From a virus: a stretch of DNA of 64,000 bases. Below, in pieces: positions 357 through 51,846 of this stretch; within the stretch, counting starts at the first letter, position 1; each line of letters starts with the position of its first letter. The translations under genes were made by a program, and so were the position numbers. The stretch is from positions 1-64,000 of IMG/VR virus record IMGVR_UViG_3300009011_000006; one strand, 5' to 3'. Below the pieces are notes generated by a model. It saw only the letters and a list, made by a program, of their open reading frames with translations. It was not told the DNA's origin and did not search any database.

Positions 357-949
357 TACAGCCTCTCAATAAGCTTAATAGAGCCGAGGTCCATTAGAAT
401 ACCATCATCGAATACCATACCCATTACAGTATCGGTATCATAAAGACAATTCATAATGACATCGTCGCGATGTGTAAAAGACGTATTTGACACGGCAGTA
501 CGCAAAGTAGGATATATACCCACATTGCCGATTCCTGTTAGATCTGTCGTAGTCATGTACACCTTTGAATGATTAGAGAACCTAATAAAAGTACCTTTAA
601 CAATCCGACCTGCATTGCCAGTGACGGCGAGGGAACTTGCCCCCGCCGCACCAGTTGCTAGAGGAGTGCTAGTAGAGGTACGCCCTTTAATAACACCAAT
701 GTTCTGAGGAACGATAATTGTAACCGCTTCTGAGTACCCATGGGTAATCAAGTTCACGAATAGATCCTGTGCACCGCCAGACAAAGGCTCGAGGCGGGTT
801 TCTAATTCCCACCTCTGAGCCGGACGACGGCTTACAGCCCTCTTCAAGGACAAGGTATCCGATACGAAGACGGGACTATTTGACTTCAGAGTCATAGGTA
901 CGACGAACTGAGCGATAACAACACCGTTTTCGTAGATACCGTAAGCCAT
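356..949 (-). CDS. Distal tail (Dit-like) minor tail protein
   Basis: A 197-residue protein of mixed polar and beta-rich composition. It begins in the stop region of the tape measure gene and ends overlapping the next tail gene by TAATG. In siphoviruses the gene after the tape measure encodes the distal tail protein that links tail tube and baseplate, and the length and composition suit that role. I recognise no specific motif, so the name is positional. A lambda gpM-like minor tail protein is the alternative. Confidence 0.55.
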   Translation of the reverse strand: MAYGIYENGVVIAQFVVPMTLKSNSPVFVSDTLSLKRAVSRRPAQRWELETRLEPLSGGAQDLFVNLITHGYSEAVTIIVPQNIGVIKGRTSTSTPLATGAAGASSLAVTGNAGRIVKGTFIRFSNHSKVYMTTTDLTGIGNVGIYPTLRTAVSNTSFTHRDDVIMNCLYDTDTVMGMVFDDGILMDLGSIKLIERL

Positions 950-3900: not shown

Positions 3901-6900
3901 AATACCGCCCTTACCATCATAACTGATGCGACTTTCAATACTAGCAGCATCAGCGGCGAGCTTTGCGCGCTCAGAGCCTAGCTTTGACACCTCTCCTGCG
4001 TTACGCTTAAGTGCTCTTGCGTTTGCGCCCAGCCCTGCTGTTTCATTAATTAAACGAGCTCGCAGTGTGGCCGGTATGGCACCAGCGCCGGCAATTTGTG
4101 AAGTAAGTACATTATCAGCTTCAGCCCTAGTGGCTGCCACATTAGCTGCAGCCTTGCGCAACTGTTCTAGAGCAGTTTTTGCACGAGCAGGACCATCGGT
4201 ATCACCGATATGATCCATTGCAACACGAACGTCCTTAGATGCCTTATCCACATCCTTAAGTTCATCAGCCAGCGCTTGGATTTGGTCCGTCGGCAGGTTA
4301 ATGTAGTCCGTCATATCTAGCGAAGGCACTTGAATCTTTTGGAGGGCGTTGTTAATCCCGTCAAAGCTCATATCACTAGGTTGCAGCGCACGCATCTTCG
4401 TTTCAGCTTCAGATACAGCATCTGCAATTTTCTTAAGCTGATCTGGTGTAGCATCCGATGGAGCTTTATCCAACTCAGTCTTAAGACGCAGGTACTCAGC
4501 AGAAGCTTTGCCGAATTCTACGGCAGCCTTTGAACCACTAATTGCAAAATTACGAAGCAATCCTTCATTCGCGCCGTCGCCTAGTGCGCCTGCTTGCTGC
4601 GTTATCTTACTACCCAGCAGCATACGGTCAGCAATCTGCTTATTAAACTCATCAGCAGCTTCCGTTGCACTCTTCATCCATTGTTGTGCAATACGACGTG
4701 CAGTGAAGTCAGAAGCAGCAACAGCTTTTTCAGAGTCCGTAGTAGGATTCAGTCTGGCGTTCGCCTTGTTGAACTGATCTGAATACTTCTTAAAAGCTTC
4801 TACATCAGATTTACCTCCAAAGAACTTTTCACCCTTAGTTCCGAAGTCAGTACCCAGAGCTTTAGTCTTAGTGGTAAAGTCTGCAAGAGAATCATTGAAG
4901 GCCTTTACATCTGCGTTCTTTTGCCCAAGAACACCAAGAGCATCCGAGATACGGCGGTATGCAACTTCAACCTTTGCAAGATGCTGAAGCTCAGCACGAC
5001 GGCGTGCTTCAAAATCGTCCTTGCCTTCGCCAAAACGTTGGCCATCACGATTTGTAGCTGCCACAGTACGAACCGACTGGTCATACTCTGCCCTGGCGTT
5101 GTTAAATACACCTTGTTGCTTAGGAGACAGAAAAGCAAAATTCTTAACAGCCTTTGCTGTAAATTGCTTTTCCCACTCATTGTACATCTTGGTGTCGTTA
5201 ACAGAAGTATCCTGCGCTCGCGCCCGTACAGCATCAAAAGCACCTTGTGCCTTATTACCTACAGCACGACCTGCACGACCAAGCCAACTATTAGAAATGT
5301 AGTCGCCGACTTTATTTAGAGCATGCGCAATAGCGTTCTTTACGTAGTCTGAAGCAGTGTAGATACCTGGCAGCGCTTTCTTCTCCCACCAGTCGCCAAT
5401 ACTAGTGAAGACATTCTTGATGTCTTTCCACATATTAGAGAGCCAGATGGTAAAACCGGTACCGTCACCTTTACCAAAGATAAAACGTCCAAGGTTGCCC
5501 GTAAGCGACGTATCTGGCTTAGCGCGATCAGCTGCATTAATTGCAATCGTATCGCCGATATTTCTTGCAGTAGCCCCCGGCCTGAGAGGATATCTAGCCA
5601 ACATTTCAGAAGAATCTTGCTGCAGCTTTGCAAAACGACGCTTTTGTTCGTCATTGAGCTTACCGCCTTGAGACATAGCTTCGTCATTGAGCTGAGAAAT
5701 CGTATCAGTAATGGTCTGTAGGTAGTTCTGAAGTGCAGCCTGCTGGCCGTCGGAAACTTGACTCAGATCAATATTCTTCAATTGATCTCTAATGTCAAAT
5801 TTCTGTCCAGCAACATCCTTTACACCAAAATCTTTAGCCAGCTTTGCTGCCTTACCGGCGCCGCTCTTTGCGTCCATACCAAAGAAGCCGAGGATGTTAT
5901 CGCCCAACCATTTGATGTTATCAGTGAACGACTCGAAAGGTCCAAAGAACCCTGCGATAAGGCCGGTAGCGATAGTCACCGCGCCAACCAAAGCAATGAT
6001 CTCTGGTCCCAACGCAAGACCAAAGAAACCCAACACAGCTGTCAGACCACGTGCCAGCAGTCCGGCAGCGCTGCCTAGTATTCTAGCAGCAAAGCCTGCA
6101 CCCCGGAAAGCAGCTCCGACCGGTCTGAAAATACGCGCAAGAATACCTGCTTCTCTCGCTGCGCCTGAGACGCCACCAATCAGAATAGGCCCGGTACCAC
6201 CAGAGATAGCACGAGCGCCAGCACCCATACCAACAGCACTACGCAGTGTAACGATAGCCTTGTCGATAATAATAGTCGCGCTTGCCCTACGAGAACCCAG
6301 CAGGGTGCCGAAGAACGTAGAAAAGCCTGCCTTCAAACCTTCGCCAGCTTGCCTCGTCTGATTAAAACGATCCTTAGCATTGCTGAGAGAGTCCGTCAGG
6401 CTGGTTTCGCCCGACATCAGCTTTCCAATACGGTCATTCCACCAGCTAGCGCTAAATACAGTAGCCTTTGACAGATCTTGCAGTCTGCTGGCAAAACCAC
6501 GGATATTAAGTGTTACGGCGTCCCACGCTGCCTTTGTAGCAGCCTGATCAACACCAGAGCGAAGTTCTTGCTCCTTACTGTTGAGCTTCTCCTTAATACC
6601 CTTATTAAGCATTGCGCTGTAAGTACCACGTGATGCGGTGCCAAACTGTTCCATCCGCTGAGCTTTAGACAGCTTGTCAAAGTCCCAAAGCTTGGTTTGG
6701 CGCTTCTCATTAAGACTATCTTTGTAATTCTGCAGCTCACCGCCGATTGCATCATTAACAAAGTCTTTCTTAGTGCTTCTGAAGGTCTTAAAAGCTTGCA
6801 CAGACTTTTGAACTGCTTTAAAGGCAGCGGCCAAGGCAAGCGTAGAAACTACAACGCCGCCAATATTACCGCCAAGATCCGTGAAAGCCTGCCCTGCACC

Positions 6901-9900
6901 AGTAGCTGCATTTGCAGTACTAGCTAGGCCGACAATCAAAGCTCCGGCTGCAGCCAGCAGAAACAGCTTATTCTGCAAAAGTGAAGAAAGACCGCTCAAT
7001 ATTGGTGAAATGGCACTAAAGAAGCCAGAAATACCCGAGCGCAGCCCGCTAAAGATTTGTGCAGAAAACGAGAGCAACACAGTCTTCAAATTAGAAGTAG
7101 CGCCCTTGATTGTCCTGATAGCAGCGCTGCTAGCCTTTGTAACGCCGTCCTTAAGCTTCTTTCCGAAATCACCAAGGCTGGTGTTAGGAGAGATTTGAAG
7201 CTTAGATACACCTTCGCGTAGACTTTTGAAGGAGTCTATAAAGTTAGTATCTGACTGCGGTTGCTGAGGACCATTAGCGCCGACCACACTGCTCTTAAAC
7301 AACGTGCTCTTAAGGTCCAACTCACCATTTGCGTAACGTTCACGATTAGCAGCGATATTGCGAAACATATTTGCAAAATCATCGCCAATAGCTGCCAAGG
7401 CAGTAGCAATAGGGCCACGCTGTTGGTTTGCCACGCGCCTAAAGAGAAGAATAGGGCTAGACAACCATGTAGAAACACGCGCAGTCCAACCAGCAGGAAG
7501 CACAACAGACGCGGCATCTTTCGCCAGTTTGCCTAGCACGCCCGCAAGTAGATTGCTACCCATAACGGTAAGATCTCGCAGCAGGCGAGCGCCGCCGTCT
7601 TTACCAAACATCGCAATCGCAATGAAAGGCAGAGAGGCTTCTACAGCTTCCACCATTCCAAACGCATCAGTCAGACCTAGCGACAGGATGCCAGCGGCAA
7701 TAGCCGCAAACTTAGGCTCATCAATCAGATTCTTAGCAAGGCTGCTGGTAAACTTAACACGAGAGAGTTGCCCCAAAATAGGGCCACTGTAACCTTCAAG
7801 CAGTGCCGGAGCAATACCAGGTTTACGCCTCTTACCTTCTTTACCGTTACCAAACAGCGTCGTGTAGATATCAGAAAACTTCTTCCCCGAAAACTTGCTA
7901 TATGCAATCGTAATTGCTGCAAGTGCTCCGATTACACTATTAGAGAAGATCGGGATAAGATTGCTTACAACATTCAGAGGCCCTTCCATAAATGGCAGAG
8001 CATCCAGGAAGATGCCACGAAGCATTGCAGGGATTGCGTGGCCGATAAGAGCGACACCTTCCATCGCACTCGCGAGCAACTTCTTAATAAACTCATTTGC
8101 GACTACGCCAGCAGCTTGCCCAATAGCTGGAGCTGCATTAGTCAATGCTCCACCAGTTGCTGAGTCTACAATAGACATCAGGTAGGAAGCAGCGAAGAAT
8201 TTAATCGGAGTACTCTTAGAGCGAAGCAACACGAACGAAGCATACAATACGGAGCCAAAAGAAGACGCTAGATTCTTAGCAGTATTACCCCAATCGATGT
8301 CTTGGATAGTCAGCTTAAGGCTACGGAAGGTGCCACCGAAGCGTTGGCCAAATCCTTCGATTTTCTTGTATACGCTTTCAAATGCTGATTTTACAAGATC
8401 ACCAAACTTTTCGATAGCTGACTGCGAATGGAATAGGTTCTTCGTGTAAGCATTAACGTCATCGATCGTGTCCGGCCAGAAGGAGTGTCCAACAACTTCA
8501 TCCCAGATATTGTAGAAAACGTCTTTGATCGTCTTCCCAAAGTTAGAAACAATACGTTCCACCTTGGCAAGTCCACCACTGGCATAAGATTCAACCGTAC
8601 GGATCATATTGATGAAGCTTTGCAGCCCATCACGCGCAGACGCCTTCAAACTATCAAAGATAGCACTGTAATCTACCTGCTGAAGTTGATGCACCAGCTC
8701 TGAGCCGACACCAGCAAACACCCCGACCAGAAAGGCAGGCAGAGTCTTGGCAACACCAACTAGGATGCTAACAATAGTCTTGCCGATCTTAGTGCCTATA
8801 TCATCGGCGTTTGCCACATTATTGAGCAGTTTTCGGGCCACTGTAGCGAGTGTCTTAAGCGCTCCAATAACGCCATTAACCAGAGCTTCTCCCAACGCCT
8901 TGCCTGTTTCAAAGCTAAAAGCTGAAGAGAAGATATCTCGGATGGTCTTGAGGCCAATGTAGACATTTACAGCGGCCTTGTATGCAAAATTACTGAGATC
9001 TGGCAGAACAAGATCATTGAATGCTCGCTTGGCCATATCACCAATGAGACGCATATACTCAATAACGCGATCAAATCGGGTGTCTCGAATACGAACAAGT
9101 TTGTTGTCCATCAAGCCTAGCTGGATTAGCACATCCTGCAGAGGCCACACAGTAAACTCTTTAACCAGTCGTTCTTTTTCACGGATCAGGTACTGCACAC
9201 GATCAATACGGATCAGGTGCCCATCAAAGGTATTATTAAGCCTAGTAAGGTTGTCGGCGAATTCCGAAATATCTTTAGACTTAAAAAGGCTGACCAAAGC
9301 TCTAGGCGCAAAGTTATCTCCAAGGAAACCTACAGACAGCGTTTCTTTAAGGCCTTCTAGTCCACGATTAAGCGGAAGAAGAGCTTTATATACAAATGTA
9401 TCAGCATCATGCGCAGTCTTCGCAACGGTTGCACCGAAACTATCGCGGAAACGAACCATAGGTGCAATGATGACAGGCATACTACGCGCAATATTGCGAG
9501 CAATCAACTCCACGCTACGCGTCATCTGCACAGCAGAATCAGTGAGCGCTTCTACAGTCTTACGCGTGTCGCCTAGATCAAAGAATCCTCGATTGTCTTC
9601 CTTAGTAGGCTTCTTGATACGGCTGAACAGTCGTTGAATGATATTCTGTGGAACATCGATTTGATCTTGCGTCTTGAACAATTCGCGGATTTTATTCACC
9701 GCGTCCTTGGTCTGTGCCCGCATTTGGCTACGCAGCGACAAGGGATTGAAATCAAGGGCTAGCTGCCACTTAAGCCTAAACGAACGGAAGGCATCAAGTG
9801 ACCTGATGTAATTGTCGAAAGCGCGCTGCGTAGTTGCAAGGCGGATAATGATCTTATCAGCACCAAAGCCTACATCATCTGCAATAGACGAAAATACCTT

Positions 9901-10824
9901 ACCTAGAGACTGAGACGCGCCGAGGTAGGTATTGATATCACCAAAGAAGTAGCCAAAAGCCTGCGACATCTTGTTAAGACCAGCAGAGGCGGTAGTGGTC
10001 GTCTTTGTGAAGTCCTTATCAACACTTGCGGCCATCTTTTCAAGTTGCTGAACGAGGAGATCAGTAGTGATCTTACCGTTATTGGCAAACTGCCGAAGCT
10101 GGCCTACGCTGACATTAAGAGACTTAGCTAGTGCAATGCCCAGATAAGGCATTTGCTCCATGACTGAGTTAAATTCTTCGCCACGGAGAACACCGGAGGC
10201 GATCCCCTGGTTCAGCTGAGTAATAGCAGCAGCAATCGATTCTACAGAAGAACCTGAAAGTTGAGCACTCTGCTGGATCGTCTTATTCAGACGAATAATC
10301 TTTTCCTGGCTGGCACCCGTCTGCTCCAAAGATTTGCTGAGCGTAAAATACAGATCAGCATTATTCTTGAGTAAAGTGCGGGTATCTTGCGAAGTCTTAA
10401 ACAAGGCTCGCTGCGACTGAGTAAGCTCTGCGGTACCTTGCGTTACGAGCTTTAAGCGATTTCGAATATTCTCGAGATCATCGCCAACACGCGCGAAGGC
10501 AGTAACACCACGGGTGGCAACAAATGCTGCTGCAACACCAATAATACTACCCTTCAACAGGTTCATATTGGCTACAAGTTTGTTAGTGTCACCGGCGACG
10601 GCGCGGAGGGAGGCCGTACCAGTGGTCCCAAAAGCGCGCAACTGACGGTTAGTGCGGTCAACCTCCTGACCCACTTTCTTAAATTGATCGCTGTCTACAC
10701 CGTTTAGTGCAGTACTAGCTTTATTACCTCTAAGCACTAGATCTGCCAGCGACTTGTTAAGCTGCTTGAGATCAGACCGCGCTTTGTCAGAGCTGGTATC
10801 TACGTCAATAATAACGCCAGACAT
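949..10824 (-). CDS. Tape measure protein with embedded peptidase-like domain
   Basis: A 3,291-residue protein, the largest gene in the window. It has an N-terminal tape-measure domain (roughly residues 1-300), long coiled-coil stretches, and several hydrophobic Ala/Gly/Leu-rich segments around residues 900-1,600. Near residues 2,740-2,805 the sequence shows H2748, D2760 and a Trp-His at H2803, in an arrangement like zinc peptidases of the M15 type, which would suit a cell-wall-cleaving module. The C-terminus is Gly/Ser-rich. I prefer ATG at 10824, seven to eight bases after AAAGGA, over the TTG one codon earlier. At about 1.5 angstrom per residue the tail would be near 490 nm. A hairpin terminator lies just upstream. 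Confidence 0.93.
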   Translation of the reverse strand: MSGVIIDVDTSSDKARSDLKQLNKSLADLVLRGNKASTALNGVDSDQFKKVGQEVDRTNRQLRAFGTTGTASLRAVAGDTNKLVANMNLLKGSIIGVAAAFVATRGVTAFARVGDDLENIRNRLKLVTQGTAELTQSQRALFKTSQDTRTLLKNNADLYFTLSKSLEQTGASQEKIIRLNKTIQQSAQLSGSSVESIAAAITQLNQGIASGVLRGEEFNSVMEQMPYLGIALAKSLNVSVGQLRQFANNGKITTDLLVQQLEKMAASVDKDFTKTTTTASAGLNKMSQAFGYFFGDINTYLGASQSLGKVFSSIADDVGFGADKIIIRLATTQRAFDNYIRSLDAFRSFRLKWQLALDFNPLSLRSQMRAQTKDAVNKIRELFKTQDQIDVPQNIIQRLFSRIKKPTKEDNRGFFDLGDTRKTVEALTDSAVQMTRSVELIARNIARSMPVIIAPMVRFRDSFGATVAKTAHDADTFVYKALLPLNRGLEGLKETLSVGFLGDNFAPRALVSLFKSKDISEFADNLTRLNNTFDGHLIRIDRVQYLIREKERLVKEFTVWPLQDVLIQLGLMDNKLVRIRDTRFDRVIEYMRLIGDMAKRAFNDLVLPDLSNFAYKAAVNVYIGLKTIRDIFSSAFSFETGKALGEALVNGVIGALKTLATVARKLLNNVANADDIGTKIGKTIVSILVGVAKTLPAFLVGVFAGVGSELVHQLQQVDYSAIFDSLKASARDGLQSFINMIRTVESYASGGLAKVERIVSNFGKTIKDVFYNIWDEVVGHSFWPDTIDDVNAYTKNLFHSQSAIEKFGDLVKSAFESVYKKIEGFGQRFGGTFRSLKLTIQDIDWGNTAKNLASSFGSVLYASFVLLRSKSTPIKFFAASYLMSIVDSATGGALTNAAPAIGQAAGVVANEFIKKLLASAMEGVALIGHAIPAMLRGIFLDALPFMEGPLNVVSNLIPIFSNSVIGALAAITIAYSKFSGKKFSDIYTTLFGNGKEGKRRKPGIAPALLEGYSGPILGQLSRVKFTSSLAKNLIDEPKFAAIAAGILSLGLTDAFGMVEAVEASLPFIAIAMFGKDGGARLLRDLTVMGSNLLAGVLGKLAKDAASVVLPAGWTARVSTWLSSPILLFRRVANQQRGPIATALAAIGDDFANMFRNIAANRERYANGELDLKSTLFKSSVVGANGPQQPQSDTNFIDSFKSLREGVSKLQISPNTSLGDFGKKLKDGVTKASSAAIRTIKGATSNLKTVLLSFSAQIFSGLRSGISGFFSAISPILSGLSSLLQNKLFLLAAAGALIVGLASTANAATGAGQAFTDLGGNIGGVVVSTLALAAAFKAVQKSVQAFKTFRSTKKDFVNDAIGGELQNYKDSLNEKRQTKLWDFDKLSKAQRMEQFGTASRGTYSAMLNKGIKEKLNSKEQELRSGVDQAATKAAWDAVTLNIRGFASRLQDLSKATVFSASWWNDRIGKLMSGETSLTDSLSNAKDRFNQTRQAGEGLKAGFSTFFGTLLGSRRASATIIIDKAIVTLRSAVGMGAGARAISGGTGPILIGGVSGAAREAGILARIFRPVGAAFRGAGFAARILGSAAGLLARGLTAVLGFFGLALGPEIIALVGAVTIATGLIAGFFGPFESFTDNIKWLGDNILGFFGMDAKSGAGKAAKLAKDFGVKDVAGQKFDIRDQLKNIDLSQVSDGQQAALQNYLQTITDTISQLNDEAMSQGGKLNDEQKRRFAKLQQDSSEMLARYPLRPGATARNIGDTIAINAADRAKPDTSLTGNLGRFIFGKGDGTGFTIWLSNMWKDIKNVFTSIGDWWEKKALPGIYTASDYVKNAIAHALNKVGDYISNSWLGRAGRAVGNKAQGAFDAVRARAQDTSVNDTKMYNEWEKQFTAKAVKNFAFLSPKQQGVFNNARAEYDQSVRTVAATNRDGQRFGEGKDDFEARRRAELQHLAKVEVAYRRISDALGVLGQKNADVKAFNDSLADFTTKTKALGTDFGTKGEKFFGGKSDVEAFKKYSDQFNKANARLNPTTDSEKAVAASDFTARRIAQQWMKSATEAADEFNKQIADRMLLGSKITQQAGALGDGANEGLLRNFAISGSKAAVEFGKASAEYLRLKTELDKAPSDATPDQLKKIADAVSEAETKMRALQPSDMSFDGINNALQKIQVPSLDMTDYINLPTDQIQALADELKDVDKASKDVRVAMDHIGDTDGPARAKTALEQLRKAAANVAATRAEADNVLTSQIAGAGAIPATLRARLINETAGLGANARALKRNAGEVSKLGSERAKLAADAASIESRISYDGKGGITGVTPAEIARLDAAKIRLDAIGERVNELGQAPKKEVKDRYGFKELLADVNEAGVEISDMGFSRLSQTSRSSLQSIASQIHGIEKQLKNATPTQDVSALLQQKADLLASMREKLVDSFDKTGKALGESLSRSGVGDQVSIEAIATNKLKQLVELDKRIQLKRLEADDVTNLEDYVAKMAQLNKLERERAKLLEDSTNSMDKYAERINSIFGTNLELFNTDLFGEQFAAYISSAAGVIKAQMAKLAAQGKASFGWLREIKQQGEYISLFNDMAQSIDDAFIRGARSAFKKIKDIIPDYGVTEQQFRRFSPEQRQSVTQSAINLDALDRAQELPNLTKPLVDIINSFNGSNQNDVMSRFRTEFEKEFKTKFDATPFESAVDRFSSAVDRFATPPVATGKAFSDTELKGIVTGLFPNARVNGLSRTQARNDQLYADGTHHRSYHVPGTEAGVSAVDVKPMAGITFKDFVKKFKDAGYSVAEAIDESRKSTAKNGGKNWHIALRNAPMVDSTEAPPIVVDGIKTKNTPLERGYSQVYDLIDQAKKSSTFTRQYGGNRKDALAASGIDRKTLDLFTPAQLQTLEQYQKRIDGLNEAILQADTAGEDTSKLAKSLQIAQGSMERFTDRVVHAGDNFRQMGEQFAQSLDKNFQDALFNAFSGKGNFFSTIFDGLAQDILHQATSAITAPITGENGVITNGIRSVFGGGSSGGGIGSAIGGLFGKGSDGINNGLFSGLFGGGDKNTVVPDVGGFASSLNIGNSLPTLDAGSGVGLFKKGGDLLGKDVLGSLDSGASTIGDTLGTGADALSGGIGDALSKGTDSLSKGISGAFSGLGASGAAGLGSLAGGLFGSLIAGFFADGGQISTTGKISGKGSDRSDSILAAVSNDEHIIKAKQARKYRKLLVAINEDKLPKFADGGIVGSSSIGSIIAVPTTSTIDEKKMPKANTSGKTEINLGITGDVTKQTKRTVYEMLPEIAAGVNAHNKEKGIK

Positions 10825-10846
10825 CAATTGATTCCTTTCAAAATTA

Positions 10847-14027: not shown

Positions 14028-15215
14028 TTAGCTGTGGAAGACGGGCAGAATGCCGAGCGACAGGGCCGACGTAGTCTTACGCTGCCAGATACCCTTCACG
14101 TTCGCGATGTTAGCATCGACCATGTTAGCAACGGTACGAACCGTGCTGCCATCAAGGACCGAAGCATAGTCAGCGTCCGAAGGGAAAGCTTCTTCTGGGC
14201 CAGCCCAGGTGTAGCCAGCGGGGTGGATCACATAGCCCCAACGGTGCCAGATTTCCTTGGTACCCGAACCCTTATAAGCAGCCGCGCGAGCGTCCACTTC
14301 CACAGGCTCAGGGATATCCAGCTGTTCCATAGCAATAGCGCCAGGAAGCACCAGGAACGAGGTATACTGGCCAACGATATCAACGCCAGCACCGACATTG
14401 ATCTTTGCAAGCTCTGCCGTAGTGAACGAGGTGTTAGCACGAGACAGAATCAGGCGGAACTTACCATTAAAGATGGTTTCAAATTCCAGCTGACCATCAA
14501 CGATCTTATCTTGGTCAATCAGGTTAGCCGAACGAACGCTCGCCAGGATAGCCGGATTAATAACCCAATACATATAGTCGGGTTCGCAATCCTTGAAAGC
14601 CATACCAACAGCACGGAACATAGCTTCTGCACGCTGAGCGCCCTGAGCCGTGGTCGTAGCAGCACCAACCGGAGAGTTAGCACCAAGGTCCACATAGAAA
14701 CCATAACGCTTATCAGTCGGATCGTTGAAGAACGTCTGGCCACCAAGGCCGGCCTGTCCAGTTGCGCTGGCAGCACCATTCAGAAGCTCGGCAACGGCAA
14801 CACCCTTCAGAACAGCCATAAGCGCGTTATGTTCGTCCTGCGCATGATGCTCTGCAAAGCTCTTACCCATCTGGATCAAGTCGTCCTTCTGAGTAATAAG
14901 CTGCTTGAGATTAACCTTCTTTGCGCCCCACGTACGCACAGTCTTAATATACTGCGCCCAGTCGCTGGCAAAATCATTGTAGGAACCGTCAGTCGAGTCC
15001 GTGATAGAAGCAACGTTGATGACGGCATTCATCGGCTTGAACCAGCGCATCTGACCGACAAACGTTTCAGTGTTCTTGTCAATCTGAGGATTACCGCCTA
15101 CAATGGCAGTGCTGGACAGCTTCTTAGCATTAGTGTAGGCCTCATCGCTGTAAGCAGCGAGAGTTTCCTGCAGGACGTAGTTGAGTGCGCCTGCCGGGAT
15201 CGAGGGAGTCGGCAT
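14028..15215 (-). CDS. Major capsid protein
   Basis: A 395-residue protein, directly after the scaffold gene and followed by connector genes. Its composition is typical of HK97-fold capsid subunits, including a C-terminal region with a W-H-R-W-G-Y segment and a P-x-G-Y-T-W motif near residue 330. There is no obvious N-terminal scaffold domain; the scaffold is a separate gene upstream. Codon use is more regular than in accessory genes, as expected for an abundant protein. Confidence 0.85.
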   Translation of the reverse strand: MPTPSIPAGALNYVLQETLAAYSDEAYTNAKKLSSTAIVGGNPQIDKNTETFVGQMRWFKPMNAVINVASITDSTDGSYNDFASDWAQYIKTVRTWGAKKVNLKQLITQKDDLIQMGKSFAEHHAQDEHNALMAVLKGVAVAELLNGAASATGQAGLGGQTFFNDPTDKRYGFYVDLGANSPVGAATTTAQGAQRAEAMFRAVGMAFKDCEPDYMYWVINPAILASVRSANLIDQDKIVDGQLEFETIFNGKFRLILSRANTSFTTAELAKINVGAGVDIVGQYTSFLVLPGAIAMEQLDIPEPVEVDARAAAYKGSGTKEIWHRWGYVIHPAGYTWAGPEEAFPSDADYASVLDGSTVRTVANMVDANIANVKGIWQRKTTSALSLGILPVFHS

Positions 15216-15233: not shown

Positions 15234-15920
15234 TTAGCCCCTCGCAGGTTTACCTGCTAGGATGTTCGCAGCAATCTGATCAAAACCCATTTCAAAAATA
15301 GAACCAGGTTTATTTTCAGGTTTGCCGCTGGGTTTAATAGGCTGGCTACCTCCGCCGCTATTACGCTTAGGCTTGAGCAAGTATGAATTATCATCATGCT
15401 CCAGGAAAGCCTTCACATAATCCTCGACAGAACGACCATCCTTGGCCTTCCAAACGCCATCATCACCCTTGATAAGCTCAGAAGTGATTTCATTAACAGC
15501 AGCTTGCTTAGCCTTGGGAGTACGAAACTCTACGTCAACAGACGAGACAGCATCACGCACGTCACGATCACGAGACAGTCGAACGTTACTTTCGCGAAGG
15601 CTAGTAAGCTCCGACTCAAGAGCGGTCTTTTCGAGAGCGTAAGCTTCAGCAAGCTTACCTTCATCCCGCAGTCGGTTAGCCTCACGTTCACGTTCTGCCT
15701 TTTCAAGTGCAGCAGCCTTTTCTTCAGCCTGCTTTACGCGCGCATTCAGATCGTCCATCTTCTTCTTGAAATCGGCCTTGGCCTTATCAAGAGCCTTTTG
15801 AGAGTCAGACACGTCCTCAATAGGACTGCCATCTTCGTTCTTGGTCGGATCATAGTCGGGGTTGTCGATCATCTGACCTTCGTTTTCAGGATCAGGGATC
15901 TGCTTTGGATTCACTAGCAT
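15234..15920 (-). CDS. Capsid scaffolding protein
   Basis: A 228-residue, very charged protein. Residues about 45-115 form a strong Lys/Glu/Ala coiled coil, and the C-terminus is basic, Gly/Pro-rich and flexible. This layout, immediately before the capsid gene, is typical of internal scaffolds with a capsid-binding tail. The candidate promoter at 16029-16044 lies upstream, so the scaffold begins a capsid transcription unit. Confidence 0.8.
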   Translation of the reverse strand: MLVNPKQIPDPENEGQMIDNPDYDPTKNEDGSPIEDVSDSQKALDKAKADFKKKMDDLNARVKQAEEKAAALEKAEREREANRLRDEGKLAEAYALEKTALESELTSLRESNVRLSRDRDVRDAVSSVDVEFRTPKAKQAAVNEITSELIKGDDGVWKAKDGRSVEDYVKAFLEHDDNSYLLKPKRNSGGGSQPIKPSGKPENKPGSIFEMGFDQIAANILAGKPARG

Positions 15921-16020: not shown

Positions 16021-16046
16021 ACCCTACCGGGTTAATTTAACGGGCT
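16021..16046 (-). promoter_or_regulatory. Candidate phage promoter, copy 1 (capsid unit)
   Basis: The coding strand carries CCCGTTAAATTAACCC at 16029-16044, matching three other intergenic copies. Its last bases form a hairpin, ACCC-GGTA-GGGT, at 16021-16032. It lies in the 131-bp gap between the RNA polymerase fusion gene and the scaffold gene. Promoter function is inferred from recurrence and placement only. Confidence 0.6.
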
Positions 16047-16051
16047 CGACT

Positions 16052-19000
16052 TTACCCTACACCGTACCAACCATAGTTATTTTCAAAGTCATACGGTACT
16101 TCTTCAAGCACTTGCTCTTGTGTTAGGATATCGTCTTCTGTAAGTACCTTACCACCAATCACAGACCTTCCTGCGACAGGCACTAGCCCTTTATCAATAG
16201 CGTCATTCAACAGCTGATCATAAATATCTTGAGGCAGACCTCTGTTTTTCATCTCATCCAGCGTCATAATGATAGGATTTTTATCCATAACCTTAGCGTA
16301 GATTTGGCGAAGAGCAGATCTGCCAGGAAGCATATCGGCAATATTAGTAAAGAAAGCGTCATGTACAGTGGAGGTAGCTACATTGTTAGCTTTACCCCAA
16401 AGATGAAACCGCTTAACAATGACAGCATCATTTGAATGGTTTGCATTAACACCAAAAGCAGTGCCGGCTTTGATGGGATTAGCGATGTCATTGATAGTGC
16501 CCGACTTATTAAGTACTTGATCCCACCAGCTCGCTGCTGTCTTTTGTGGAATCATAAGGATATTAGTTTGCCAATTACCATCTTTATCTTTGTAAACTAA
16601 ACGTTCTTCAAATGTTTGCGTGAAGGACTGATTGATTACCTTTCCATCAAAGTTGACAGAGGGTACATAAGTCCAGCTCTTCGGCAAATCATTCATGTTG
16701 GTGTACAGTAGCGTGATTTCAGAAGCCTTTTCAACATCCTTGAAACCAGTCACACCAAACTTTGAGGCGATATCTGCGATTGGTACGCCACCAACGCTAA
16801 GATCTAGCTTAAACAACTTTCGTCCTAGGGCACGTTCGCCTGGCTTTTCAACACCAAGGATTAGGTCTGCTAACCCACTTTCAGGCTTCCAATCAGTAAA
16901 GACCCGCTGCAGCAGTTCTGCTGTAACAGTGGTGTTTGGTGGAAGCCCTAAGTAACGCGCAAGCTCTTTACCGATAGGACCACGTCCTGGGCCTTTACGT
17001 TCACGCCCTGTCAGTGCGTATGAGGCAATTTTCTTCCAATTCAAACTGCTGTCTGATGGCTTGGCATTTGCTAGAAAGGCTTGAGCCATGCGTCTGAAGA
17101 AGGGACTAAACTCCTTTAGGATAGGCACTTGCTCATTCAGATGGTCTGACATGATTCGGGCTACAGCTTCGAAGTCTTTAGGCGTCACGATTTCATCATA
17201 CGCTTGAGACATCTTCTCTACTAGCTCGCGTGTTTTAGGCTCCAGGAACCAGAGTTCTGCCATGATTTCGTCGCCAGGTTGCTGACCTTTATTGAAGACA
17301 TCTACAATATCCTTACGTAATTCGGCAAGCATGTCAGCGCCTTCTGGATCGTATCGAAGCAGACGTGCCCTCCTGGCATCAATCTCATTCAATACGGTCT
17401 GACGTTCTCCGGATGTAACCACAAGAGTATTATCACGTTTACCGAGTACCTTACCAAGCTTTCCTTCTACATTCATGATGCCAGTTCTTTCACCAGCGCC
17501 GTAAAAGGTCACCATATTTTGGGCTTTAGCTGCTTTTTGCAGATCTTTAAGCTTCAACCCCAATCGTTCATTTAGGGTCTTAAAGCGAGGATCATTATAA
17601 GTAGCTGCAGCAATTTCGTCGTATAGACGTCGCTTTTGGCTAGTCGGAACCACGTTAGACAGTGACGCCAGTGCTCTGTTTCTAGTTGTAAGTGCAATAA
17701 TCTGGGCACCCGACGATGATGCGTCCTGCTCCATAGCAAGGCCAGTCATTAGGTTATCTAGCGTTCCGCCACTTGTTACATGGTTCTCTATTTTAGCTGC
17801 TTCAATTGCAAAACGAAAGAACTTACCTAGCTCTTCACCTTCAACTTCGGCAACAATATCGCTTTCTAGGATTGCCCTAATATCTGCAGGCCTAGCAGAC
17901 AACATCTGTTTACCAATGTTTACAAGATCTGGCCACCACTTCTCAGCGATGCGTTGCCTACCTCTGAACGTCAGACTATCATAATTACCCTCAAAGAAAT
18001 CAGCTAGACCACCTAGAAAGCTTCCTATCTGATCTGTGAAGGCATCATACCCTGCTTTTCCCATTGGTTTTAGTGCAGCTGTGTTGAGGAAAGGGCGAAA
18101 GCTTTCACCACTCTGCGCTGAGATATAGCCACGATCGTAGACACGACCACGGTGGTCTACAAACGGCAGATTAGTGAACGTTTTACCGCGCAGCCATTGC
18201 ATTGCTTTAAAACGTTCATAAGCATCGCCGCGAGAGGTAATATACTTACGATAATGATTAAGATCGTCATACTTCTTTGAATTACCTCTATCATCCTTAA
18301 AGTATAGAAGCTTTTCAATGAAGTTATGGAAATCTGAATCAACTGTGTACGCGGCTTTACCAGCCCAATTGAGGGCATCAGCCAAATCTTTATCTACAAA
18401 GTCACGAGTAACTTCTGAAGAAGTAATTGACTGGCGAGTGTTGTACCAGAGGCCGTTTCTTTTAGTGTAGTATGTGGTATAGCCAGGGCGAATCACCAGA
18501 CCATTGTCAAAGGTGGCCGGAATACGCATACCAACTTCAATTTTACGCTCCAAAAGGCCATACTCGATTAGCCGAGGATCCAGCAGCCGGATGTAGTAAG
18601 AGACAGTATCATAGTACGGACCGAAGTATCTACCAGAGACGCTAGAACGCATTCTACGCTTTTGAACACCGAATGTATCAATGTCAAACAAATGTCCGGC
18701 CTTGCGCTCCAACAGCTTAACACCCAGCTCGTACCAATCGCGACGATTGCCATTAAGATTTGCTGTATTATAAAGGCTTCTGCCTAGGTAAACAGCCAGA
18801 GCATCTCTATCGCTGCCCTCTCGAACCAATCTATGAGCAAACTGCTGATAAAATGATTGAAGCTGCGCATCAGATAGACGACGCTTGATCTTCAGTGGAA
18901 TGCCGGGATCGAAGAAGCCTCGCAGCTCGTTTGCAATTGTAGGAGCAACACGGTCTTCCCACTTGTTACGTGCAACAATATTATCAACTAGCCCTTTTTG

Positions 19001-20701
19001 GAGTTCATCAAGCTGAGTTCGACCTAGAACAGGGTCAATATACTCATCTTCCAGAAGCTTCTTAAGAACATCTTTATCACGGCGCAGCTGTGTTTCGATA
19101 GCATCCGAGATATTCATTACATCGAATTTCATCTGGCTATTTAAAACAGCTTTAAGGTTGCCCCAGGGCTGCCCATTCTGCCGAAAGCGGCCAATGACAA
19201 TACGAAGGTTATCAGCAATAACAGAGCGCTCATTCATACCCATCTTCATTGACAGGTCATCCATGACTTGCTTAATAAAAGCTTTATCTTGGTCTTTTAG
19301 AAGATCACTGTCATCCACACGGCGCAAGGCACCTGCGTAGACATCGCCGTTAGGCTGATAAATACGAACGTCATCGTATCTCTGTGTTAGAGGATTGAAG
19401 CGAAGCTGTTCTTCCTTTGGCGGTGTTGAAAGAACTCTATTGCGAGTCAATCGCTTATTACCAAGGTTGATACCACGGTAGGAAGTAAACGAAAGATTAC
19501 CGTTGAGGTCACCTGCTTGAAGGAGGTAGTAATCTACCAGCGTCTTGCGGATATCCTGCAGCTCCTCAGGTCTAGCAGCACCGAGTTGCATCGCGTCCAG
19601 ACGTTGTTTTGCATCAGCAAATTTACGAGTATCACCAGGTACTACGTAATCGGCATCAGTAAGCTGTCGAAGCTCCTTAATACCAATATTATTACCCTTA
19701 GCATTAGTGAATTGGTCAACGGTCAATTCACCACTATTCAACATCTCAACTTTCTTATACTCGCCAAGATGCCTCAATTGAACAGCTACGGGTTGCCTTT
19801 TGAGCCAGTCATTGTAGCTTTCCCGTAACGGCGTCTGACCATCGTAGAACTTTTTCTGTGCTTCTGTGAGCCCTTGTAGGTTTCTCCTACGGACTTCTGC
19901 GACGCTTTCCAGATTCGCGACATCTGACCAACTTTTGAAGACAGGTATGGAAGTAGAGCGACAATTCCAATGAGCTGGAGGAAGATGCTCCACATCACCG
20001 ACCGGGTAGATTGTTCCATCACGATGGGCACACAAGGGAGTAGTACGGCTGTCCAAAACAGCAACGTATTGCCAACCTTGGATTGCTTTTTCGTTAGCTT
20101 TATAGACTTCATGATCAGCCTGATTATGGACAGACGTGATTGACGTTGTTACCAGCGTCTGTGATTGTTGCTTTGTAATGCTGTGAAGGTTGCCTTTACG
20201 AACAGCCAGAGCAATGTCTTGCATGCTATCACCATTAGCGATGCCACGGCGAATGATTTGCTCAATACGCTTGCGTTCATTTACAGAGACGCCCAACCAG
20301 CCTTGCTCTAGAGTCTTATCTGCGTAAAGAGGACGTTCAAGTACAACTTCTTCAGCCACACGTCTAGTCGGCCTCTGTGTGCGCCAAATCTTGCCCATCA
20401 CGTTTTCTACGTTTTGATAAGCAAACGATACTTGGTCATTGAATAGATCTAAAAGCGAGCGACGCATGGTAGAATGGACTTCAGTAAAGGTATCCTGTAG
20501 CTCCTGATCTACAGCCTCTCTAAGACGTGCTAAGCCTTTGTCACTTTTCTCTGCGTCTACTACAAGCTTATCCAGACGAACAGCGTGGCCGTCAAGTACC
20601 AGTTCTACTTTACCCTGGACACGTCGTTCGTATAAGCGGATCATAGCCGCTCTATCAATAACCTTGTCATAAAGTTCAGTATTAGCATTGACGGCCTTCA
20701 T
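16052..20701 (-). CDS. MuF-type head protein fused to single-subunit RNA polymerase
   Basis: One frame of 1,549 residues. The N-terminal part (about 1-265) is a MuF/SPP1-gp7 minor head protein. Residues about 203-263 hold LDSRTTPLC, H-R-D-G-T-I-Y-P and PPAHWNCRST, the Cys/His-rich signature of that family. The rest shows the T7/N4 RNA polymerase series in order: DHRGR at 849-853, motif A Asp993 followed by S-S-S-G, motif B Lys1059 with Tyr1067-Gly1068, and motif C His1447-Asp1448. The 389-residue spacing from B to C exceeds T7 (about 181) and is nearer N4 virion polymerase. All catalytic residues are present. ATG at 20701 has AAGGA six bases upstream; ATG at 20707 is the alternative. It stands between portal and scaffold genes, so a packaged, injected polymerase is likely. 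Confidence 0.9.
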   Translation of the reverse strand: MKAVNANTELYDKVIDRAAMIRLYERRVQGKVELVLDGHAVRLDKLVVDAEKSDKGLARLREAVDQELQDTFTEVHSTMRRSLLDLFNDQVSFAYQNVENVMGKIWRTQRPTRRVAEEVVLERPLYADKTLEQGWLGVSVNERKRIEQIIRRGIANGDSMQDIALAVRKGNLHSITKQQSQTLVTTSITSVHNQADHEVYKANEKAIQGWQYVAVLDSRTTPLCAHRDGTIYPVGDVEHLPPAHWNCRSTSIPVFKSWSDVANLESVAEVRRRNLQGLTEAQKKFYDGQTPLRESYNDWLKRQPVAVQLRHLGEYKKVEMLNSGELTVDQFTNAKGNNIGIKELRQLTDADYVVPGDTRKFADAKQRLDAMQLGAARPEELQDIRKTLVDYYLLQAGDLNGNLSFTSYRGINLGNKRLTRNRVLSTPPKEEQLRFNPLTQRYDDVRIYQPNGDVYAGALRRVDDSDLLKDQDKAFIKQVMDDLSMKMGMNERSVIADNLRIVIGRFRQNGQPWGNLKAVLNSQMKFDVMNISDAIETQLRRDKDVLKKLLEDEYIDPVLGRTQLDELQKGLVDNIVARNKWEDRVAPTIANELRGFFDPGIPLKIKRRLSDAQLQSFYQQFAHRLVREGSDRDALAVYLGRSLYNTANLNGNRRDWYELGVKLLERKAGHLFDIDTFGVQKRRMRSSVSGRYFGPYYDTVSYYIRLLDPRLIEYGLLERKIEVGMRIPATFDNGLVIRPGYTTYYTKRNGLWYNTRQSITSSEVTRDFVDKDLADALNWAGKAAYTVDSDFHNFIEKLLYFKDDRGNSKKYDDLNHYRKYITSRGDAYERFKAMQWLRGKTFTNLPFVDHRGRVYDRGYISAQSGESFRPFLNTAALKPMGKAGYDAFTDQIGSFLGGLADFFEGNYDSLTFRGRQRIAEKWWPDLVNIGKQMLSARPADIRAILESDIVAEVEGEELGKFFRFAIEAAKIENHVTSGGTLDNLMTGLAMEQDASSSGAQIIALTTRNRALASLSNVVPTSQKRRLYDEIAAATYNDPRFKTLNERLGLKLKDLQKAAKAQNMVTFYGAGERTGIMNVEGKLGKVLGKRDNTLVVTSGERQTVLNEIDARRARLLRYDPEGADMLAELRKDIVDVFNKGQQPGDEIMAELWFLEPKTRELVEKMSQAYDEIVTPKDFEAVARIMSDHLNEQVPILKEFSPFFRRMAQAFLANAKPSDSSLNWKKIASYALTGRERKGPGRGPIGKELARYLGLPPNTTVTAELLQRVFTDWKPESGLADLILGVEKPGERALGRKLFKLDLSVGGVPIADIASKFGVTGFKDVEKASEITLLYTNMNDLPKSWTYVPSVNFDGKVINQSFTQTFEERLVYKDKDGNWQTNILMIPQKTAASWWDQVLNKSGTINDIANPIKAGTAFGVNANHSNDAVIVKRFHLWGKANNVATSTVHDAFFTNIADMLPGRSALRQIYAKVMDKNPIIMTLDEMKNRGLPQDIYDQLLNDAIDKGLVPVAGRSVIGGKVLTEDDILTQEQVLEEVPYDFENNYGWYGVG

Positions 20702-20703
20702 TA

Positions 20704-20988
20704 TCATTCCTTATTAGCTAAGCAGTAAGCTTCCAACGGCCAAACTTTTCGCAAAGCGTCTTCACGTGCAAACTTCTCGCCCAATTCCTTATTGTAATTA
20801 ACCGGGTCTACACAAGCACTTTCACCTACAATTTTAAAACCATTACGCAGTTTCAAAATACAAATGGTAAGCGTTTCATCGTAAAAGAATTTAGTATCTA
20901 CGATTAGCGCAGTAATATCATCTAGCGTGATACGCTTGGACGTCTTAGCAACAGCCGCTGCGAGTTGATCACTCTGTTCAATACTCAT
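20704..20988 (-). CDS. N4 Gp49 / Sf6 Gp66-family protein
   Basis: A 94-residue protein with the conserved pattern of this phage family: G-E-S-A-C-V-D-P near residue 57, N-Y-N-K-E-L-G, and a C-terminal A-L-R-K-V-W-P-L-E-A-Y. The molecular function of the family is unknown. It overlaps the RNA polymerase fusion gene and is translationally coupled to it. Confidence 0.7.
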   Translation of the reverse strand: MSIEQSDQLAAAVAKTSKRITLDDITALIVDTKFFYDETLTICILKLRNGFKIVGESACVDPVNYNKELGEKFAREDALRKVWPLEAYCLANKE

Positions 20989-21421: not shown

Positions 21422-23059
21422 TTATGCCTTTAATTTTGCCTTCATCTGCTGGGCAAAGTTGGATTGCTGGGCTGCATGCTGCTCACGAGCAGATACAACA
21501 GTCTCGTCTGCATTGATCTCCTTCTGAGCTTCGTCATCATCAAAGTCAGGAGGAAGCATATCATTTTGCTTGAGGATAAGAAGCCAAGCACTACGAGGGA
21601 TAAGCGCATTCTGATACCATTCAGTGGCCAGCCGAAGCCAGTCAGCACCTTGTGGAATTGGATTGAAATCAGAAGAAAGTTCAAATTCCATATCAGCGGG
21701 ATCAATTTCAAGCGCATACCGCCAGTTAATCATAAAGCAGATAATCTGCCGTAGAGTATTTGAAACCTTAGTATTCAAAGAACCTAGTTGTGCAGTTTGA
21801 GCTGCATTACGTAACTCCAGCGCGACACCCGACTGATTTCCAGTCTCAGGCGCCAGCATCCGAACACCCAGCTTAGCGATTTCTTCGTAGCCTGCTGCAA
21901 TTGCATTCTCCATATGTTCCAAGGCATCTGCAGGCGCCTTTAGAATATCTGCCTTATCTTCAGAGTTAGGCAAATGGATCCAGCTACCTAAACCTCCTTC
22001 TACAACTTCCTCAAACTTATCATCAGACATGCTGGAAGAGAGAACCGGAGTATAAGTAGCTGCGCCGTACATCAAGTGGTTACGACGACTGATCTTATTG
22101 TAGAGGGCAATTTCCTTATCTACAATCGCAGTCAACATTGGCTCCTGGCCTTCAATAGAACCATTGAGAGGCCACGCGGGGATCATCGTCAGCGGCTTAT
22201 CGTGAACTAACACAGGAATTGTGTCGATTAGTTTATAAATAGGATTGTTGGTATTATTGATCTGCTTGTCACCGCCAACGTATGTGACACTGTCAGTAGC
22301 TTCGTCTACTTCAAAGACACGAATTTGGTAAGTACCAGCAGAGCTAAGCTCATGCACCCAGATAGTAGGAACCATCTTAGGGTGGAATTCGTACTGGTCC
22401 TCGTCGTAACGTTCAGTCCAACCCTTCACAACCACGCGGTCTAGGATGGTCTTACCTGCAGAGTCTGTACGAGTGCGAGTATTGATGATGCTCTCTGCCT
22501 GATAAAGCACAGGGTAGGGCTTTGCAGTGGCGTCTACTTCTTCATCTTCAGGTACAACAGGGTAGTCAACAAACACCCATGCCGCGCTGGTCTGCACTTC
22601 CTCCCAGAGAGCTTCGTCCATAAAGGCAGTTAGAGCAGAATCGTCCTTACCAAACTCATGTAGAATCCAGTGGTATGCCTCTTTAGGAACACTATCTGGA
22701 AACTTGATAGTAGGTTGCTTACGCAGCAGACCGCCTACGAGCGTCTTAGAGAACTGTGCAGTGATCCCAGGCAACTCTGCCTCTGCCTTATAAAAGGCAT
22801 ATTGACGAGCAGTCATAGACGGAGAGAAAGGAATGAGCAAATTCGTGAAGTTAACGACATCCAATGTATCATCGAAATCTTTTACGAATTGCTCACCTTT
22901 ACAGACAGCCCTACTCTTTGCGCGAAGATACGAGAAGCTCTCATAAGCAGCAGAAGGATCAGCCACCGTCTTGACAGGCGTGGTTGCTGTATTAGCAACA
23001 GTAGTGGCACGAGACTTTATGGGCGCTGCCGCCAGCCTTTCGAAAGTGGCTTCATCCAT
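21422..23059 (-). CDS. Portal protein (DUF4055-type)
   Basis: A 545-residue protein resembling the DUF4055 portal group: N-terminal segment with F-S-P-S-M-T-A-R-Q-Y, a central beta-rich crown region, and an Asp/Glu-Ala helical C-terminus ending in Q/A/K-rich sequence. Portals form the dodecameric DNA channel at one capsid vertex. The gene precedes the zincin, Gp49-like and MuF genes, the usual portal-MuF neighbourhood. Length is normal for the family. Confidence 0.85.
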   Translation of the reverse strand: MDEATFERLAAAPIKSRATTVANTATTPVKTVADPSAAYESFSYLRAKSRAVCKGEQFVKDFDDTLDVVNFTNLLIPFSPSMTARQYAFYKAEAELPGITAQFSKTLVGGLLRKQPTIKFPDSVPKEAYHWILHEFGKDDSALTAFMDEALWEEVQTSAAWVFVDYPVVPEDEEVDATAKPYPVLYQAESIINTRTRTDSAGKTILDRVVVKGWTERYDEDQYEFHPKMVPTIWVHELSSAGTYQIRVFEVDEATDSVTYVGGDKQINNTNNPIYKLIDTIPVLVHDKPLTMIPAWPLNGSIEGQEPMLTAIVDKEIALYNKISRRNHLMYGAATYTPVLSSSMSDDKFEEVVEGGLGSWIHLPNSEDKADILKAPADALEHMENAIAAGYEEIAKLGVRMLAPETGNQSGVALELRNAAQTAQLGSLNTKVSNTLRQIICFMINWRYALEIDPADMEFELSSDFNPIPQGADWLRLATEWYQNALIPRSAWLLILKQNDMLPPDFDDDEAQKEINADETVVSAREQHAAQQSNFAQQMKAKLKA

Positions 23060-28566: not shown

Positions 28567-29385
28567 ACCCACGTTAAAGTCGATAGCTACATGCACATCC
28601 TCGTGTTCTCCCAGAGGCTCTAGCGTCTTGTTATGCTTAGCGCGTTCATAGGAGTAGAACACCATATTACCAGAGTCCATGAAGGACGCCATATATTCCG
28701 CAGCAAAGGCCCGTGGATCCATAGTACTCTTCAGCGCTACGATTTCTTCTGGGTCTAGAAAAGGAGAACCAGTATAGTCATAATGATAAGAGTTCCAGGT
28801 AGGGTCTTTCTCGTGGAAATGATGAAGCTCATGAAAGAAATCATAGCCATTAGGTGTAGAAGCAAAGACAGCACGACCAGGACTTCTAGCACCATAGCGA
28901 CGTGCGTTTGCAGGAGACCAGCGGGTGCTGATGCAGGGTCGTACAATAGACTCCCAAGCAGCTTTTGCGCCAATACCCTTAGTGCAGGTGGTGACTTCGT
29001 CCCAGCCAACGAAATAATAGCCCTTACCGCGCATACGCTGTACTGCTTCAAAAGACAGCAGGCGAAGTTCTACATTATTTGGGAGGACAAAGCGGCCTTC
29101 ATCTTGGCTCGCCTTAATGGCAATTTCTTCCAGCCCCATATCCTGAGCCAGGATAGGGTAAAAGATGTCTGTAACCTGATCGTATGTCGGGGCAATAATA
29201 CCTACACGTTTGTTAGGAACGTTTCTAGGTAACGCCATAAGCTCATGCACTGCAGTTGCAGCACAGGCAGAGAGGAAGTATGATTTACCCCAGCCACGAG
29301 CACAGCATACAGACACAAAGCGGTGAGCTTGATCAATAAAGAGATCTTCGTAAGCATCGCTCTGCCCGTAGTGGAGATCAATCAC
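28567..29385 (-). CDS. terL: Terminase large subunit, exon 1 (ATPase domain)
   Basis: 273 codons before the splice site. Walker A is ARGWGKSY at residues 29-36; Walker B is Y-F-V-G-W-D-E, with D129 and E130. The exon ends at I-D-F-N-V-G, the first metal-binding Asp of the nuclease. GTG at 29385 follows GGAG by eight bases; TTG at 29424 is the upstream limit, since a TAA precedes it. Without splicing the frame would continue only about 20 codons into the intron. The enzyme packages DNA through the portal using ATP and cuts concatemers. Confidence 0.88.
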
Positions 29386-30279: not shown

Positions 30280-30604
30280 TATTTCTCCTCTCGGACACTA
30301 AGGCAGCTGCAAAATATCAAGCTGTGCCTGTGTGACCCATCATTAAGCTAACGGTTTCGTGATTATCCCTTTGCACACCTATCTTGTACGCTGCCAGAAA
30401 ACGTTTGTAAATCAACGCTCTCGACGCCCGGCTAAAGGTACACAGGAGGAACACTCCTATAGGGGTAAGGGTATAGGGTATAATATAGGGTCTATCATCT
30501 ATCATCCTCTACCCTTATACTCCCAATCTTGTTACCTAACGGTAACGGAGGACGTAAATATCATTAATTTAACGGGTTGAGCCTCGGATTATTGCCTATA
30601 AAGC
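30280..30604 (-). promoter_or_regulatory. Late-operon regulatory region with promoter motif copy 2
   Basis: About 325 bases without a credible gene. On the coding strand it holds ACCCGTTAAATTAAT at 30563-30578, the second copy of the recurring motif. About 25 bases downstream is a GTTACC-GTTA-GGTAAC hairpin. Further on is an AT-rich stretch near 30470-30490 containing TATATTATACCC. It separates a strong terminator from the packaging genes and probably holds the promoter of the virion operon. Confidence 0.6.
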
Positions 30605-38696: not shown

Positions 38697-38697
38697 T

Positions 38698-42815: not shown

Positions 42816-42816
42816 G

Positions 42817-47241: not shown

Positions 47242-47282
47242 TGTAGGGTTCTCCTTTCATATAAGATACCCGAGATTGCGCA

Positions 47283-51772: not shown

Positions 51773-51798
51773 CCCTTTCAGGGTTAATTTAACGGGTT
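51773..51798 (-). promoter_or_regulatory. Candidate phage promoter, copy 3
   Basis: The coding strand has AACCCGTTAAATTAACCC (51781-51798). Its last bases begin a hairpin CCCT-GAA-AGGG (51773-51783) with a 3-nt loop. It lies 44 bases before the gene at 51729. The short stem with a 3-nt purine-rich loop recalls N4 virion polymerase promoters. Function is inferred. Confidence 0.65.
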
Positions 51799-51818: not shown

Positions 51819-51846
51819 CCCTTTTCAAGGGTTAATTTAACGGGTT
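51819..51846 (-). promoter_or_regulatory. Candidate phage promoter, copy 4
   Basis: A second copy 48 bases upstream of copy 3: AACCCGTTAAATTAACCC at 51829-51846, with hairpin CCCTT-GAA-AAGGG at 51819-51831 in the same relative position. The tandem arrangement suggests a strong or regulated start site. Function is inferred. Confidence 0.65.

Follow-up and report, generated by a model that had tools for sequence, protein, structure and literature searches.

A MuF head protein fused to a T7-family RNA polymerase in long-tailed phages, a likely virion-carried enzyme for early transcription

Background

Can a phage load an RNA polymerase into its virion on a MuF head protein and use it to transcribe its first genes? 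This question is raised by a gene in the 64,000-nt stretch of phage DNA analyzed here (hereafter the window), which corresponds to positions 1-64000 of a virus record 79,024 nt long. Virion-carried RNA polymerases have so far been demonstrated in few phage groups. Phage N4 brings in gp50, a virion RNA polymerase of the T7-like single-subunit family, and later uses a second T7-family enzyme, RNAP II. According to Iyer et al. 2017 (PMC5512222), N4-type virion polymerases are confined to N4-like phages. Thermus phage P23-45 possesses a virion RNA polymerase fused to the tape measure protein (gp96) and a non-virion polymerase (gp64); its two-polymerase, two-promoter scheme was demonstrated experimentally, and relatives that lack the fusion also lack the early motif (PMC10770324). 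MuF domains fused to toxins or effectors are known as polyvalent proteins, with passengers including RNases, kinases and RelA/SpoT; a polymerase on MuF is not described in the bearing sections of that work (Iyer et al. 2017, PMC5512222).

Results

One frame encodes a MuF domain and a single-subunit RNA polymerase

The fusion gene is a single uninterrupted frame on the minus strand with an ATG start, 1,551 codons and a stop (Table 1). A first-pass annotation of the window had reported one continuous MuF and polymerase frame of 1,549 codons (16052-20701) with D849, D993, K1059, Y1067 and H1447-D1448 as catalytic residues. The continuity of the frame held and all these residues are present; the proposed start is in fact the third codon, so every residue number was 2 too low, and the correct positions are D851, D995, K1061, Y1069 and H1449-D1450. 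A plus-strand reading at the same coordinates is full of stops and was rejected.

The MuF family PF04233 matched residues 147-252 with E 3e-16 (60.5 bits, curated cut-off 29.6), and the head morphogenesis family phrog_241 covered residues 3-350 (E 1.6e-63). For the C-terminal part, the RNA_pol family PF00940 was found with E 7e-6 (25.5 bits, curated cut-off 22), and the RNA polymerase family phrog_414 also matched the fusion (E 6e-16). The product is a MuF head protein joined to a T7-family single-subunit RNA polymerase with intact catalytic residues, and the occurrence of such a fused frame is far beyond chance.

Table 1 Features of the fusion locus and promoter-like motifs (window positions unless marked as genome)
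Feature	Position	Strand	Basis
MuF-RNA polymerase fusion gene	16052..20707	-	Open reading frame, profile matches, full-length homologues
MuF domain core, residues 147-252, invariant C226, H246, C249	19952..20269	-	PF04233, alignment
Single-subunit RNA polymerase module, residues 380-1551	16055..19570	-	AlphaFold, Foldseek, HMM match to T7 RNA polymerase
D851 in DxRGRxY motif (here DHRGRVY)	18155..18157	-	Invariant; aligned with T7 DWRGRVY
Motif A, EQDASSSG, catalytic D995	17708..17731	-	Invariant; T7 alignment
Motif B, KAAKAQNMVTFYG, K1061 and Y1069	17498..17536	-	Invariant
Motif C, TVHDAFF, H1449-D1450	16349..16369	-	Invariant; T7 alignment
Portal protein	21422..23059	-	phrog_145, E 3e-55
Head scaffolding protein	15234..15920	-	phrog_206, E 4e-11
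Major head protein	14028..15215	-	phrog_247, E 3e-20
Tail tape measure protein, 3,292 aa; long-tailed virion	949..10827	-	PHROG
Class E promoter-like motif	47258..47281	-	Motif scan
Class E motif, three copies outside the window	genome 70523-70546, 70693-70716, 72869-72892		Motif scan
Class L motif after the fusion gene, before scaffold/capsid genes; same place in many relatives	16029..16044	-	
Class L promoter-like motif	51781..51796	-	
Class L promoter-like motif	51829..51844	-	
Variant class L motif without the ACCC part	30564..30576	-	

The catalytic core, claimed to be intact from sequence alone, also held on a wider basis: D851, D995, K1061, Y1069, H1449 and D1450 were invariant in 62/62 sequences of the family alignment, including the Naomviridae homologues at 32-33% identity. 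The last five are the equivalents of D537, K631, Y639, H811 and D812 of T7 RNA polymerase. When the single fusion sequence was run against the PDB with phmmer, no meaningful match was obtained; only the family profile built from the 62 sequences reached T7 RNA polymerase (E 7e-4), with DWRGRVY, motif A and the HD of motif C in alignment.

Structure prediction of both parts had been proposed as a check. The AlphaFold model of residues 380-1551 (pLDDT 84, pTM 0.81) retrieved mitochondrial (POLRMT) and T7 RNA polymerases in Foldseek with E 1e-14 to 1e-17, and many phage polymerases were matched as well. The single-subunit, right-hand polymerase fold expected for this part therefore held, and RNA synthesis activity is inferred. 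For the MuF part the fold search against the PDB was uninformative, with no match below E 0.1, and it was not established whether the PDB contains any MuF structure.

The fusion is widespread and present in cultured phages

Almost the whole gene set of the phage is encoded on the minus strand. An exact 123-nt direct repeat is found at the genome ends (window 1-123; genome 78902-79024), and IMG/VR classes the record as linear. Because of this exact terminal repeat the record is likely closed and probably represents a complete genome.

The search for homologous fusions, also recommended by the first-pass annotation, found them both in isolates and in many IMG/VR contigs. Among annotated phages, the full-length fusion was detected only in EBPR siphovirus 1 (52% identity; gp47/gp49, split by an HNH-containing insert) and in the Naomviridae DSS3_VP1 and DSS3_PM1 (~32% identity), which are direct members of the fusion family. 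These homologues are annotated merely as head (morphogenesis) proteins in GenBank; the architecture is already present in GenBank records, apparently unrecognized. Dozens of IMG/VR contigs encode the full-length fusion with 47-69% identity. A single query found 111 IMG/VR stretches encoding relatives of the fusion, and an alignment query at least 579. Prophage origin was rejected, as a scan of bacterial-genome contigs yielded only one MAG, on a contig that equals an IMG/VR virus contig in length and is apparently a phage contig binned with it.

No description of a MuF-polymerase fusion was found in the literature searched, and a mention in the paper describing the Naomviridae cannot be excluded. 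The architecture, which the first-pass annotation did not know as an established, characterized system, also occurs outside this genome.

No MuF protein besides the fusion in 16 records

In 16/16 records checked, the fusion was the sole MuF protein, and the MuF domain was conserved across 75 aligned sequences. Its gene is located between the portal gene and the scaffold and major head genes, the usual position of a MuF gene. Since there is no other MuF protein and the position is the usual one, the fusion is most simply the head protein itself rather than an extra copy. Sole-MuF status and gene order are the main evidence for a location in the virion; this evidence is indirect and virion presence is inferred.

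A second T7-like polymerase accompanies the fusion

The genome also encodes a canonical T7-like RNA polymerase (genome ~69460-66513), whose gene contains a group I intron carrying an HNH gene. A second T7-like polymerase was present in 15/16 relatives of a first sample, in 13/13 records of a second sample and in DSS3_VP1. The only relative of the first sample without it is a 43-kb fragment (G016), and it was not seen in the EBPR siphovirus 1 record, which is partial (54 kb); the few records lacking the second polymerase are fragments. The profile of this second family matched T7 RNA polymerase with E 6e-75. When the polymerase part of the fusion was compared with the second polymerase by hhalign, the D851 motif and motif A were correctly aligned, with a probability of 10% and E 0.003. 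Because this probability is low, we make no claim that one polymerase descends from the other.

Two classes of promoter-like motifs

Two classes of promoter-like motifs, defined by sequence only, were found on the coding strand of these genomes. The early class (class E) is the 26-nt motif GCGgAAAAnnnGGTATCTTATATGAA. It occurred in 1-4 copies in 17/17 IMG/VR genomes, always on the coding strand, and the reversed pattern used as a control gave 0 matches. For about 30 of the 38 copies, the second-polymerase gene follows at a distance of roughly 1-5 kb downstream, some gene starts being approximate. In the relatives, the class E logo spans ~28 contiguous positions and is conserved through the spacer, without a sigma-70 -35 box; the logo was anchored only on the 3' core, and conservation runs ~18 nt further upstream. 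RNA downstream of class E tends to start with a hairpin (mean z -1.2 relative to mononucleotide shuffles), a weak trend, and hairpins of the N4 type (~5-bp stem, 3-nt loop) were found at 7/148 class E sites versus 9.4 expected from shuffles.

In this phage, two class E copies look like sigma-70 promoters as well (TTGAC-N17-TATATG). Sigma-70-like sites in early regions were not above shuffles. Host sigma-70 promoters were consequently rejected as drivers of the early block, although these two copies remain compatible with them.

The second class (class L) is the motif CCCGTTAAATTAACCC, followed in the 4 full copies of the present genome by a short spacer and GGG. We take it to be like the T3 promoter (AATTAACCCTCACTAAAGGGAGA). 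Class L precedes the scaffold and capsid genes directly after the fusion gene and occurs at other middle and late positions; matches were found in 16/17 IMG/VR genomes, nearly all on the coding strand.

To examine the linkage between class E and the fusion, IMG/VR was probed with the class E pattern alone and 20 long records were retrieved. The fusion was encoded in 19 of them. The remaining 60-kb record is probably a fragment, because it has no MuF gene but does have a split second polymerase. Linkage of motif and fusion by shared ancestry alone, without recognition, cannot be ruled out.

Promoter motifs have diverged in the DSS3 phages. The early block of DSS3_VP1 contains a class E-related motif, AGAAAACTAAGGCATCTATAATGA, in 2 copies (0 expected), which includes TATAAT. 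Elsewhere in that genome, ~15 copies of the motif RATAGGKTACGTTAAAGARGG were found, which we take to be SP6-like; the interval from the early block to the second polymerase of DSS3_VP1 has no such site. In this comparison, the early motif stayed similar while the second class changed.

Discussion

A proposed transcription cascade

We consider it likely that the fused polymerase is carried in the virion and transcribes the early genes, including the gene for the second polymerase. Virion packaging, ejection, activity and promoter assignment are all inferred here. During assembly, the MuF part would anchor a few copies of the fusion inside the head near the portal, as inferred from MuF biology and gene order. 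The fusion protein, or only its polymerase part, would then be ejected together with the DNA. Inside the cell, the fused polymerase would read class E and produce early transcripts, including that of the second-polymerase gene 1-5 kb downstream; the motif, its position and its linkage are shown, its recognition is not. From class L, the second polymerase would in turn transcribe genes of the middle and late phases, scaffold and capsid among them; here too motif and position are shown and recognition is inferred.

The assignment of polymerases to motifs rests solely on timing. As long as the second polymerase has not been made, only the host enzyme or a polymerase brought by the virion could act, so the fused polymerase is the best candidate for class E. 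It is preferred over the host enzyme because in the relatives the motif does not look like a sigma-70 promoter, and sites of that type are no more frequent in the early regions than expected by chance. Early transcription by the fusion is further supported by the existence of a second RNA polymerase, the two motif classes and the linkage of class E to the fusion.

The first-pass annotation had already suggested a virion-packaged early polymerase analogous to that of N4 on a different carrier. Genomic evidence supports this: gene architecture, catalytic residues, gene order, the second polymerase and the linked motif classes are shown. No proteomic or biochemical data stand behind virion presence and ejection, which are still inferred, and a ~170-kDa protein would need unfolding to exit via a long tail.

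A bolder reading would be that a widespread, unrecognized group of long-tailed phages runs the whole infection on two T7-type polymerases without host polymerase, a tail-ejected MuF fusion reading a new linear promoter class and thereby making the second enzyme. We consider this reading more likely than not.

Alternative explanations

The alternative that survives best, though unlikely, is that the fusion is in the virion but host RNA polymerase reads class E, while the fused polymerase has another task, such as pulling in DNA by transcription or priming. T7 RNA polymerase is known to pull DNA into the cell. Also in favor are the two own class E copies that fit TTGAC-N17-TATATG and the TATAAT in the DSS3_VP1 version. 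Against it, the class E logo of the relatives lacks a -35 box and is conserved in the spacer, sigma-70-like sites do not exceed chance, and even in divergent phages the motif goes together with the fusion. For this particular phage, given its two sigma-70-like copies, a contribution of host polymerase remains possible and is not excluded.

Very unlikely is a role of the fused polymerase late or in assembly (packaging or late transcription) without delivery to the next cell. The fusion gene does lie in the structural module, and MuF proteins have a role in building the head (PMC5512222). However, the second polymerase and the class L sites before late genes already cover late transcription, and class E sites precede the second-polymerase gene.

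That the polymerase part is a degenerate, inactive passenger is all but excluded. The similarity to T7 is weak (25.5 bits for PF00940; E 7e-4 for the T7 profile match), but the catalytic residues do not vary among 62 homologues, even at 32% identity, the frames have kept their full length, and group I introns of relatives sit near motifs B and C, as expected of conserved essential sites. An assembly artefact or chimaeric contig, for which no tool result speaks and only the uncultivated status of the IMG/VR record could be cited, is refuted by the same fusion in the isolates DSS3_VP1 and DSS3_PM1 and in many independent contigs, and the genome itself closes with its 123-nt terminal repeat.

Relation to known systems

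With the virion-carried fused polymerase as the preferred reading, the system is closest in logic to two known ones. As in N4, a virion polymerase of the T7 family would be followed by a second T7-family polymerase, an analogy in which virion presence is inferred here. N4 differs in being short-tailed, in placing its polymerase in a giant protein with a metallopeptidase instead of MuF, and in using hairpin promoters. No Pfam match to the metallopeptidase or other domains of the N4 polyprotein was found in the fusion. Membership of the N4 type fails on polyprotein domains and hairpin promoters; the analogy stands.

Like P23-45, the phage is predicted to use a polymerase fused to a structural protein for the first genes, including that of a second polymerase, with two promoter classes and a fusion-linked early motif. 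The polymerases of P23-45 are two-barrel enzymes of the cellular type and the carrier is the tape measure protein, whereas the present phage has two T7-type polymerases, unrelated to those, and a MuF head protein as carrier. Of the P23-45-type traits, the phage has the second, non-virion polymerase and, judged by motif sequence only, the pair of promoter classes, but not a two-barrel tape-measure fusion; the tape measure protein matched only tape-measure PHROGs and no polymerase family.

The known MuF-effector fusions share the N-terminal MuF carrier, the C-terminal enzyme and the predicted delivery. T7, T3 and SP6 have the polymerase fold and the catalytic motifs in common with the fusion. 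Class L is similar to the T3 promoter, and the second class of DSS3 to that of SP6. The polymerases of these phages, in contrast, are not virion proteins, and class E is unlike any of their promoters.

Altogether, the fusion is real, conserved and widespread, and it would put the virion RNA polymerase principle on a new carrier, probably together with a promoter class that is also new. If this is true, the MuF head protein is a further loading route besides the giant protein of N4 and the tape measure of P23-45, in a large, little-studied group seen at no fewer than 579 places in IMG/VR. MuF, so far a suspected carrier of effectors, would become a delivery system that can be put to the test with a large enzyme. 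Promoter sequences are ready, and with the cultured members DSS3_VP1 and DSS3_PM1 a host-independent transcription cascade can be tested in an existing marine phage system, possibly yielding a new polymerase-promoter pair.

Intervening sequences and other genes

Group I introns (Rfam RF00028) were detected in the terminase gene (window 28358-28586, minus strand) and inside motif B of the second polymerase (genome 67737-67970, minus strand), each with an HNH-type gene alongside. Intron-like breaks of the fusion gene in five relatives (L057, L060, L047, L030 and L001, the last being EBPR) cluster at motif B (Y1069), at motif C (1450/1451) and nearby; group I introns in the fusion gene were confirmed for L057 (two) and L030 (one). 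In two further records (G035, G022) the fusion gene falls into four or five parts, which points to multiple intervening sequences. Three relatives (L034, L046, L050) have optional in-frame inserts of ~150-235 aa near fusion residues 980 and 1092 without a Pfam match; two inserts at different sites share a KVTExLL stretch. Inteins were rejected for these inserts, as there was no match to a splicing domain and no typical junctions.

Genes for NAD salvage, encoding a nicotinamide phosphoribosyltransferase and an adenylyltransferase-Nudix protein, are located at window 37335-38795 and 38698-39681 (minus strand) and are partly common to DSS3_VP1. A macro-domain-like protein (judged by eye), an HD-domain protein and an RNA ligase are encoded at window 33360-33809, 34707-35363 and 35230-36024 (minus strand), a stretch that might possibly serve counter-defence or RNA repair. 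The large 658-aa protein of unknown function at window 40854-42830 (minus strand) is conserved in phages (phrog_1735, E 1e-216). A tail-fibre-like protein encoded at window 24331-26028 (minus strand) contains three imperfect YERSGxxxAxxDxDxRI repeats.
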